Part shown: positions 57,549 through 59,749 of the stretch, piece after piece
Layout: every line of letters begins with the position of its first letter
Position numbering within the stretch: the stretch's first letter is position 1
Origin: Homoserinimonas sedimenticola
GTDB lineage: Bacteria; Actinomycetota; Actinomycetes; Actinomycetales; Microbacteriaceae
Assembly: GCF_026094475.1 (NCBI RefSeq)
Contig: NZ_JAPELL010000001.1
Coordinates: 2,132,326-2,196,325 of the forward strand
DNA: 64,000 bases
Direction: 5' to 3'
Notes under the pieces: model-generated
What the model saw: only the letters and a program-made list of their open reading frames with translations
Told to the model about the DNA's origin: nothing
The model's database searches: none
Program-made: the position numbers and the translations under genes

Positions 57549-57576
57549 TTAACGCGGGCGCCGACGCGCGTACCCT
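57549..57576 (+). promoter_or_regulatory. Putative promoter of the DarT-like gene
   Basis: TTAACG (57549-57554) and TACCCT (57571-57576) are separated by 16 bases, 52 bases before the start codon. Confidence 0.4.
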
Positions 57577-57627: not shown

Positions 57628-58539
57628 GTGAGCGAATGCATCCACGGACTCGATGAACAATTGTGCGACGTCTGCTCGCCCAAGCCCGCACCCGTCGCAC
57701 CGCCCGTGAAGCGCGCGCCGCGCGCGTCAACCCCATCGCTACGCAGTGGAGGGCCCGCTGTACGCTCCCCACGCGCCCCAGGGCGTGTCGCCGGCGCCCC
57801 CACCGCCGCAGGCAAACCCGTGGATGTCGCGGGGCACCGCATTTTCCACCTCACCCACGTGCGCAACTTCGCCGCCATCGCTGAAAGCGGTGCCCTCGCC
57901 CCCTCCACGGCCGGCGGAGAACCCGAGTTCGACCTCAGCGCCCCCCAGCACCGCGAACAGCGCCGCACGGCGACACTGCCCGAGACGGTTACCGCGGCCG
58001 ACACTGCAGCGATCGGAGTCGCCGTCTCCGCCGAGACCGGTGCGGATGCTGCGGCCGCCTCCCACGAGCCCGCCGCCGCGCACACCGTCGCCGACTGCGT
58101 CCCCTTCTTCGCCACGCCCGAGTCGAGCCTGTGGAACGACCTGCGCACGGGCGCACCCGATCCCCGGCTGAGTGCCGCCGCCCGCAGCAGCTCCGCCTCC
58201 GACTACGTGCTGCTCGCCACGACCGTCGGCGAGGTCGAGAAAGCCGCCACCCTCGTGCTCGCGCTCGACGAGGCATCCGCGCCGACCACCCCCATGACGG
58301 CCGACCCGGTCGCCGTGCGGCGGGAACTGCGCCGGCTCATCTCCCTCGACGCGGGTGACGGCGAAGACTCGCCCCTGGCGGCCGTCGAGATCCTCGCCGC
58401 GGGACCCGTGCCCCTCGAGGTCGTCTCGCTCATCGGTGTCGCCAACTCCAAGGCGCGCGACGAGGTCAAAGCAGTGCTGCGCGATGCGGGGCTCGACATC
58501 CGCGTCGCCGTCTACCCGCCGTGGTTCGGCCGCGGCTGA
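57628..58539 (+). CDS. DarT-like (DUF4433-type) ADP-ribosyltransferase family protein, orphan
   Basis: The 303-residue product has a short Cys/His front (CIHGLDEQLCDVC, likely a zinc knuckle), an Ala/Pro linker to residue 66, and a region that fits the DarT core: HRIFHLTHVRNFAAIAESGAL (NAD-binding His/Asn), VPFFATPESSLWNDL, and AAVEILAAGPVP, where Glu244 matches the expected catalytic Glu. DarT modifies thymidine in single-stranded DNA. No DarG macrodomain antitoxin lies beside it. Membership is inferred from pattern, not from a search. Confidence 0.65.
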   Translation: MSECIHGLDEQLCDVCSPKPAPVAPPVKRAPRASTPSLRSGGPAVRSPRAPGRVAGAPTAAGKPVDVAGHRIFHLTHVRNFAAIAESGALAPSTAGGEPEFDLSAPQHREQRRTATLPETVTAADTAAIGVAVSAETGADAAAASHEPAAAHTVADCVPFFATPESSLWNDLRTGAPDPRLSAAARSSSASDYVLLATTVGEVEKAATLVLALDEASAPTTPMTADPVAVRRELRRLISLDAGDGEDSPLAAVEILAAGPVPLEVVSLIGVANSKARDEVKAVLRDAGLDIRVAVYPPWFGRG

Positions 58540-58590
58540 GGTCTCGGCCCGTCTTACGAAGCATCACGTGCTTCGCGCCCGCGCCCTTTC

Positions 58591-58693
58591 GGAAATTCAG
58601 GAAATCTGCCTCTCCGAGGGCCGAAACCGGGCGGTGCTGCGCCGATCTGCCGCGGATTTCCTGAATTTCCGCGGCTGCATTTCCTGAATTTCC
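58591..58693. repeat. GGAAATTCAGGAAAT inverted repeats between convergent genes
   Basis: One copy at 58591-58605 is inverted relative to two copies of ATTTCCTGAATTTCC at 58656-58670 and 58679-58693. The loop is about 50 bases. The motif TTTCCTGAATTTCC also occurs at 44466-44479. Convergent genes end on both sides, so termination is possible. Confidence 0.85.
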
Positions 58694-58726
58694 GTGAGGC
58701 TCGGGCTAGTTCTGTGGCGGCCCGGG

Positions 58727-59674
58727 CTAGAGCAGGGGGCCGACCGCCGCGACGACGCGCTCCCGCAGGGCGTTGCCCCGCTCGCTGAAGTCCCGTTGGC
58801 GACGCACATACTCGGCCTTGCCCTCCGGCGTCTCGATCGCGACCGGCTCGTAGCCCCACTCCCGCAGATCGTAGGGTGACGCCTGCATGTCGAGCTCGCG
58901 GATGTCACGGGCCAACTCGAACGCGTCCAAGAGCACCTCGCCCGGCACGAGCAGGCCAAGCTTGGTCACCCACTTGTAGACGTCCATGCCCGCGTGCAGG
59001 CAGCCGGGCTGCTCCAGCTCGGGTTGGTTCTGCCGCGTCGGGGCGAGCCGGTTGCGCGGCACCGCCTCGGGCGTGAAGAAGCGGAACGCGTCGAAGTGGC
59101 TGCACGAGATGCGGTGCCCCTCGACGACCTCGTCGGTGCCGGTCGCCCCGAGACGCAGCGGCACCGTGTGACGGGTCTCGTCGGAGCGGTACACCATCGC
59201 CCACTCGTGGAGCCCGAAGCATCCGAAGTTCGCCTGCCTCTCGGCCGTGCGCTGCAGCAGTGACGTGATGAAGCGGATGCTCGAACCGCGCGCCTGCAGC
59301 AGGCCCTCCGTGTCGACGCGCACGTCGTCGCCGTCGGCCCGGTACCACTTCCAGCCGGCGCGCTCCTCGCTCGCCGCGCCCTCGAGGGTGACGCCTGCGC
59401 CGGGGTGCCAGCGGCGCAGGGTGGTCGGCCGCACCGGGTAGTAGGTGAAGAGGAAGTCCTCCACGGGATGCTTCGCGCCCGTCTGCTGCCGCGCGCGCCA
59501 GCCCGCCGTCACGGCGTCGGCCCGTTCCTGGTGGGCCGCCTCCCGCGCCCGCCATGCTTCATCATTCAGGAACTCGCGCGCGTGAGCCTCTTCATCATTC
59601 AGGAATGTCGGGCGAGTTGAGGGGCGGATGGCTGCCTCCAGCGCGACATCCGTCACTTGAGCCACTCTGGTCAC
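58727..59674 (-). CDS. Putative 3-methyladenine DNA glycosylase
   Basis: The product (315 residues from GTG 59674) matches proteins labelled 3-methyladenine DNA glycosylase in actinobacteria: EAWRAREAAHQERAD, AKHPVEDFLFTYYPVRP, FGCFGLHEWAMVY, GCLHAGMDVYKWVTKL and SPYDLREWGYEPV. The homologous part starts at about residue 40. The first 40 residues include two copies of the repeat-encoded peptide FLNDE and may be spurious; the true start could be inside. Catalytic activity is not proven for the family. Confidence 0.7.
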   Translation of the reverse strand: MTRVAQVTDVALEAAIRPSTRPTFLNDEEAHAREFLNDEAWRAREAAHQERADAVTAGWRARQQTGAKHPVEDFLFTYYPVRPTTLRRWHPGAGVTLEGAASEERAGWKWYRADGDDVRVDTEGLLQARGSSIRFITSLLQRTAERQANFGCFGLHEWAMVYRSDETRHTVPLRLGATGTDEVVEGHRISCSHFDAFRFFTPEAVPRNRLAPTRQNQPELEQPGCLHAGMDVYKWVTKLGLLVPGEVLLDAFELARDIRELDMQASPYDLREWGYEPVAIETPEGKAEYVRRQRDFSERGNALRERVVAAVGPLL

Positions 59675-59749
59675 CGCGAACTCCTGAATGATGAAGGGGC
59701 ACGGCCGCGGTGGGTAGCGCCGTCTGGGCGAAAGTTCCTGAATGATGAA
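59558..59749. repeat. Four TTCATCATTCAGGAA repeats, two in each orientation
   Basis: Copies at 59558-59572 and 59591-59605 (33 bases apart, inside the glycosylase reading frame) face inverted copies at 59682-59695 and 59735-59749. They can form two nested hairpins. The pair inside the gene encodes FLNDE twice. Confidence 0.9.

Follow-up and report, generated by a model that had tools for sequence, protein, structure and literature searches.

A stand-alone DarT-fold protein with an N-terminal Cys/His finger in Microbacteriaceae

The toxin DarT is known to kill when its eraser, DarG, is missing. The architecture of the DarT2 active site is described in excerpts of two papers (PMC9967889, PMC11543638), according to which a trio of residues (H13, T15, N19) holds the adenine-side ribose, catalysis depends on R51 and E160, Y71 and M78 respectively stack on the nicotinamide and stabilise the oxocarbenium ion, H119 locks the thymidine in place and the ARTT loop supports the single-stranded DNA (ssDNA). 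The M. tuberculosis DarT–DarG pair is presented as a regulator of replication and transcription in the excerpted text of PMC12170906 (EMBO J 2025), which makes a physiological role for a DarT plausible, though DarG is present in that system. Here we describe ZnDarT, encoded in a 64,000-nucleotide stretch of Homoserinimonas sedimenticola DNA (the window). The protein belongs to the DarT superfamily, yet it fails five tested features of the DarTG2 toxins. A literature search of titles and the starts of abstracts, with preprints and most subscription papers outside its reach, returned no description of a zinc-finger DarT or of a DarT from Microbacteriaceae.

Domain architecture of the ZnDarT family

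57628–58539, + strand: ZnDarT gene, an open reading frame with a Pfam DarT match (E 1.9e-12) and 80 relatives
57634–57681, + strand: zinc-finger-like motif E3-C4-x-H6-G7-x5-C13-x2-C16-x-P18, conserved in 81/81
57682–57837, + strand: disordered basic Ala/Pro linker (residues 19–70), from charge, pI and pLDDT
57838–58527, + strand: DarT-fold ADP-ribosyltransferase domain (residues 71–300), from the AF2 model, Foldseek and VIA
57976–58080, + strand: insertion (about residues 117–151), from the alignment; mean pLDDT 62–67 over residues 121–150

The ZnDarT reading frame starts with GTG and encodes 303 residues. Pfam DarT (PF14487, formerly DUF4433) matches the protein at 47.8 bits, above its cut-off of 22.5, and the PADLOC DarT model matches it with an E-value of 3.8e-14; the NCBIfam equivalog toxin_DarT scores 43.6 bits, below the 150 that it requires. 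As a single sequence the window protein found no match in the PDB. A profile of 42 relatives retrieved the DarTs of Thermus (7omv, 6.2e-18) and M. tuberculosis (7yk3, 3.4e-16) and Thermosipho DarTG (7omu, 1.2e-4). Pfam DarT is matched by all 42 family members scanned (E up to 1). The AF2 model of the window protein has a mean pLDDT of 85.8; Foldseek matches it to 7omy at an E-value of 1.3e-14, and VIA superimposes it on 7omv with a Z-score of 22.8 (rmsd 3.2, 202 residues), on 7yk3 with 22.4 and on DarT1 (8baq) with 14.8, the next fold after the DarTs being tRNA 2'-phosphotransferase at 9.0. HMM search and structure model therefore agree with the original prediction, made from the sequence, of a DarT/DUF4433 fold, and an ADP-ribosyltransferase fold is present in the predicted structure. 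Ten of the 42 members also weakly match DUF7002 (PF22531; best E 0.00088), which the window protein itself does not, hinting that this family of unknown function may be remotely linked to DarT.

Scanning of genome contigs gave 152 relatives, and 80 of these loci, together with the window, make up the 81 rows of the family analyses. By record title, nearly all 80 are Microbacteriaceae (Agromyces, Cryobacterium, Salinibacterium, Microcella, Lacisediminihabitans and others), a few being labelled as actinobacterium only.

The extreme N-terminus of all 81 proteins carries a CxHGx5CxxC motif, within which E3, C4, H6, G7, C13, C16 and P18 are kept in every row. A start codon lies 3–5 codons ahead of the first Cys in 81/81, and the finger is therefore most likely the true N-terminus. 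Residues 1–20 have mean pLDDT values of 78–86, and the finger is acidic (pI 4.3) and may bind zinc. The linker that follows comprises about 50 residues, mostly Ala, Pro and Arg, with a net charge of +8 as delimited for the family comparison, a pI of 12.0 over residues 19–70 and mean pLDDT values of 50–69 over residues 21–60. Family linkers span 36–75 residues and carry a net charge of +3 to +10 in 81/81. A Cys/His front had been anticipated, and C4, H6, C13 and C16 are indeed present and conserved throughout; the long Ala/Pro linker proposed with it is Ala/Pro-rich as described, but that description was incomplete, since the segment is also basic. Among 15 family rows shown, the insertion at about residues 117–151 occurs in the window protein and one relative (L001).

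Elsewhere in the window's own genome the finger pattern has a single match, in a 19-residue frame and not above the control count, and four matches in viral contigs fall in short open reading frames that have no DarT domain. A similar CxHGx5CxxC finger lies near the N-terminus of a 125-residue open reading frame with an unrelated body in another actinobacterium (L131, the finger-only match of genome G186 in a phylum sample) and near the N-termini of 74-residue frames on two viral contigs (L133, L134). These occurrences suggest that the finger is a portable mini zinc-finger module.

Active site

57961–57963, + strand: R112 (DarT2 R51), Arg in 81/81 family and 28/28 canonical rows
58132–58134, + strand: W169, just after the Met78 position, Trp in 81/81 family and 0/28 canonical rows
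58270–58272, + strand: E215, at the base-locking position of DarT2 H119, from the alignment and hhalign
58297–58386, + strand: shortened, non-basic acceptor (ARTT-type) loop before E254, from the alignment
58387–58389, + strand: E254, catalytic Glu (DarT2 E160), Glu in 81/81 family and 27/28 canonical rows

To compare the active site, all 81 family rows were aligned to 28 canonical DarTs. The canonical profile recovered 16 of the 18 non-family loci (L104–L121, without L120 and L121), from which three fragments (L112, L118, L119) and a copy of L093 (L110) were dropped. The resulting 20 canonical rows, which include six plasmid DarTs, L093 and the Thermus segment, were joined by eight more plasmid DarTs.

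Residues R71, H74, T76, H77, N80, R112, W169, E254, R277 and V293–F300 are invariant in the family, and for H74, T76, N80, R112 and E254 this holds even in members that are only about 31% identical to the window protein. His74 and Asn80, both named beforehand as residues whose conservation should be checked, are thus present in 81/81. The catalytic Glu is likewise kept in all 81 sequences, but it is E254 and not the Glu244 originally proposed, residue 244 being an Asp in a non-conserved stretch. The position of DarT2 H13 is His in 17 of 28 canonical DarTs and in the whole family, and the sole canonical row that lacks Glu at E160 is the E160A crystal construct.

The residues surrounding this core differ. 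At the Y71 position, Tyr in 27/28 canonical DarTs, the family has Phe (43 members, including the window protein), Leu (18), Ser (11), Tyr (7) or Val (2). Met occupies the M78 position in 25/28 canonical rows and in 1/81 family rows, where the window protein has Leu. From the M71/F72 pair of DarT1, as described in the excerpt of PMC11543638, the adjacent W169 is a candidate nicotinamide-stacking residue. The H119 position is Asn (18), His (9) or Ser (1) among the canonical DarTs; the family has Asp in 77 members, Glu in two (the window protein and L001), and Ala and Tyr in one each. Aligning the family consensus with one canonical DarT in hhalign paired the same Asp with Asn and the catalytic Glu with Glu. 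Around this position the window protein reads ALDEAS where the family consensus is TDGDAA. The loop that precedes the catalytic Glu measures 22–30 residues in the family (median 26) and 29–55 in canonical DarTs (median 35), and its last nine positions hold 0–2 basic residues (median 0) as against 2–5 (median 3). By alignment, then, the family conserves the NAD+ site and catalytic pair more strictly than canonical DarTs do, and the features used for thymidine and DNA recognition are systematically replaced. Replacement of the base-recognition and acceptor-loop features, which the original prediction had overlooked, argues against classical modification of ssDNA thymidine.

Antitoxin search, inheritance and gene neighbourhood

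No DarG gene adjoins ZnDarT, as had been noted from the sequence, and the window's own genome (99.99% complete) contains no Macro, NADAR or ADP_ribosyl_GH match at E-values up to 0.001; an unlinked macrodomain antitoxin in this genome is thereby rejected. A DarG-type macrodomain was found at none of the 80 relative loci, searched up to about 6 kb on each side where the contig allows, and the same search detected a DarG-like domain in 15/15 control loci. DarG-like macrodomains are also present at 14 of the 16 extra-family loci recovered by the canonical profile, and each of the 14 plasmid DarTs retrieved has a macro-domain gene beside it. Of 150 evenly sampled Microbacteriaceae genomes, 78 have a DarT-like match, counted by profile irrespective of the finger and including one weak single match (G099, 2.0e-5). 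Both DarT-like and Macro matches occur in 31 genomes, DarT-like only in 47, Macro only in 13 and neither in 59. Macro matches are commoner with a DarT-like match (31/78) than without one (13/72; Fisher p 0.004, with genome size and kinship uncontrolled). Part of the family could therefore have an unlinked eraser, and this co-occurrence counts against the simplest antitoxin-free reading.

In samples of the phylum (296 and 396 genomes), the Pfam model gives a higher score than the family profile to most of the matches that lie outside the family. A tree built by a quick method, in which long branches were flagged, places the ZnDarT and canonical rows on opposite sides of one branch (SH-aLRT 100). 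The 18 rows from Agromyces make up one starred clade and the four from Microcella/Yonghaparkia a second, and this grouping by genus points to mostly vertical inheritance. A tblastn search of plasmid and phage records gave no match to ZnDarT; in viral contigs, none of 78 candidate stretches from a scan with the 42-member profile was confirmed as a relative, and a scan with a canonical DarT query found none. The window's own genome has one DarT match. In one Lacisediminihabitans changchengi assembly, two different contigs (L039, L043) encode identical DarT-like proteins, either a recent duplication or an assembly artefact.

The ratio dN/dS is 0.10–0.37 in the 12 closest pairs listed, which are under purifying selection. 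We relied on these pairs because divergent pairs were judged saturated; taken across the full set of 2410 pairs with dS of 0.05–1.2, the median ratio is 0.59, and the window protein and L001 differ by dN 0.21 and dS 0.68. The two proteins are 67% identical. Identity to L001 is 81–93% for the products of the EEP-family gene, the S9 peptidase, nitroreductase and right-hand neighbour genes, and two genes that we take to be glutathione-transferase-like and DnaJ-like, and it is lower than that of ZnDarT for two MarR genes (54% and 60%) and a membrane-protein gene (60%). ZnDarT thus evolves faster than most of its neighbours, which an arms race could fit.

Directly upstream, the EEP gene ends 97 bases before ZnDarT, and its assignment to that family, proposed earlier, is borne out by an Exo_endo_phos match (E 2.3e-8). 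An EEP gene lies near ZnDarT in 17 of the 80 loci (L001 and Cryobacterium), sometimes on one side and sometimes on the other, and its distance varies. The convergent gene downstream (58727–59674, − strand, 315 residues), labelled earlier as a putative 3-methyladenine glycosylase, matches nothing in Pfam above cut-off and nothing in NCBIfam at E-values up to 1; its only homologue among the 80 loci is in L001 (81% identical). Neither gene is a conserved partner, and the idea that these neighbours form a DNA-acting unit finds no support. Clustering of the open reading frames of the 80 loci revealed no neighbour common to most; two 58-locus clusters consist of minus-strand frames over or beside ZnDarT and are read as antisense frames.

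57570–57576, + strand: −10-like element GTAnCnT, conserved upstream of ZnDarT

Among the 81 upstream regions, 70 have GTAnCnT between −95 and −12 relative to the start codon (median position −62), and 75 have CGTAnn(n)T. Mononucleotide shuffles gave means of 4.2 and 7.4, respectively, and random windows of the same size a mean of 1.7/80 for GTAnCnT. This element is probably the −10 element of a promoter belonging to ZnDarT itself. SOS sites follow the GAAC-N4-GTTC or RecA-NDp-type pattern; neither was found in the 81 upstream regions (160 bases each), which were scanned for signs of SOS regulation.

We also observed a dispersed repeat with the core TTCCTGAATKWYS, present in 52 copies in the window's own genome, 26 per strand (0 for the reversed-pattern control). 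Its two main types are TTCCTGAATTTCC and TTCCTGAATGATG, and copies are often arranged as minus-then-plus arms, some 65–120 bases apart. Two clusters of the repeat, at 58590–58694 and 59559–59746, form strong predicted hairpins (z −4.9 and −6.3). One lies between the 3' ends of ZnDarT and the convergent gene, and the other straddles the start of the convergent gene and extends into its coding sequence. The predicted N-terminus of the 58727–59674 product holds translated repeat copies (FLNDE twice). The repeat is possibly a REP/MITE-like element.

Function and comparison with described systems

We consider it somewhat probable that ZnDarT is a stand-alone chromosomal DarT-fold ADP-ribosyltransferase, established in many Microbacteriaceae, whose altered target recognition lets it do without an antitoxin. 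Best read, the gene is mostly vertically inherited and is not a toxin–antitoxin module, and its changed target is probably nucleic acid, activity and target both being inferred. The CxHGx5CxxC finger and basic linker would hold the enzyme on nucleic acid, and the DarT domain would bind NAD+ through H74, T76 and N80. R112 and E254 would polarise and cleave the nicotinamide bond in the manner of DarT2 R51 and E160, with W169 taking over nicotinamide stacking from the lost Tyr71, as F72 does in the guanine-specific DarT1. Asp or Glu at position 215, in place of the thymidine-locking His or Asn, may select another acceptor, plausibly an exocyclic amine of guanine, adenine or cytosine in DNA or RNA. 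Such a protein would act as a housekeeping modifier, leaving a mark that is infrequent, does no harm or is taken off by some other enzyme. The DarT fold, the orphan state and the housekeeping role suggested at the outset are all supported. More tentatively, and possible but not probable in our view, the family carries a domesticated DarT that, as part of normal physiology, marks DNA or RNA with ADP-ribose elsewhere than on thymidine, guided by the finger and with no known eraser; the chemistry of a toxin fold would then have been turned into housekeeping modification of nucleic acid. Counting against the stand-alone enzyme, the Tyr71 position is Leu or Ser in 29/81 members, a possible sign that NAD+ cleavage is weak or lost; around position 119 the window protein differs from the family consensus, and it carries an insertion; and the proposed target class derives from one alignment position and the loop.

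A relative without catalytic activity, serving as a sensor or scaffold through binding of NAD+, ADP-ribose or nucleic acid, would account for the loss of Tyr71 in many members and of Met78 in nearly all, and for the divergence of the window protein around position 119. It is nevertheless unlikely, with H74, T76, N80, R112 and E254 kept in 81/81 down to about 31% identity and dN/dS of 0.10–0.37 in the 12 closest pairs listed; the earlier suggestion of an inactive relative is disfavoured on the same grounds of invariant NAD+ and catalytic residues and purifying selection. The target of the enzyme might instead be a protein or small molecule, the finger serving as a protein–protein docking element. 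The lost basic acceptor loop that is used for DNA, the Asp or Glu in the acceptor pocket and the acidic finger (pI 4.3) would suit such a target, but the nearest solved relatives are all DNA-acting DarTs and the linker is basic, and we regard this as less likely still.

We give least weight to a genuine ssDNA-thymidine DarT that is retained as a one-gene toxin against phage or stress and lies dormant, held inactive by finger and linker until infection or zinc or DNA stress, and that for this reason requires no DarG; we think it improbable. The invariant catalytic Arg and Glu, the PADLOC DarT match (E 3.8e-14) and an evolution faster than that of most neighbours are what such a toxin would lead one to expect. 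Against these stand the replacement of the thymidine-locking residue, Tyr71, Met78 and the basic acceptor loop, a linker whose net charge of +3 to +10 is wrong for a DNA-mimic inhibitor, the grouping of the gene by genus with none found on plasmid, phage or viral records, and the conserved −10-like element upstream.

The label 'toxin DarT' on these genes may mislead as to function. A conserved and seemingly competent DarT-fold enzyme, in a genome where no ADP-ribose eraser is recognised, offers a natural test of a constitutive nucleic-acid ADP-ribosylation mark and of the residues that determine base choice among DarTs. The family also yields two precise predictions, nicotinamide stacking by W169 and acceptor selection by D/E215.

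Among described systems, tRNA 2'-phosphotransferase (Tpt1/KptA) shares the core of its NAD+-using fold with ZnDarT, although the match is much weaker (Z 9.0 or less) and covers 87–107 residues. DarT1 (E. coli C7, 8baq), which is guanine-specific and paired with NADAR, shares the fold at Z 14.8. Most ZnDarT members resemble it in lacking the stacking Tyr, and, on the excerpted account in PMC11543638, in having an aromatic residue directly after the M71/Met78 position (F72 in DarT1, W169 in ZnDarT). They differ from it at the base-coordinating Asn, for which N104 is taken from that paper and not from our alignment, and where 79/81 family members have Asp or Glu. The window's own genome, moreover, has no NADAR match, and ZnDarT is closer overall to DarT2. 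With DarT2 (Thermus sp. 2.9, 7omv–7on0; M. tuberculosis, 7yk3; PF14487) it shares the fold at Z 22.8 and 22.4 and keeps the equivalents of H13, T15, N19, R51 and E160. Unlike DarT2, it has no DarG, the equivalents of H119, Y71 and M78 are changed, the acceptor loop is shorter and not basic, an N-terminal Cys/His finger and basic linker are added, and the gene is chromosomal and mostly vertically inherited. ZnDarT is thus most likely a DarT in its chemistry that differs from DarT in its target and its biology.
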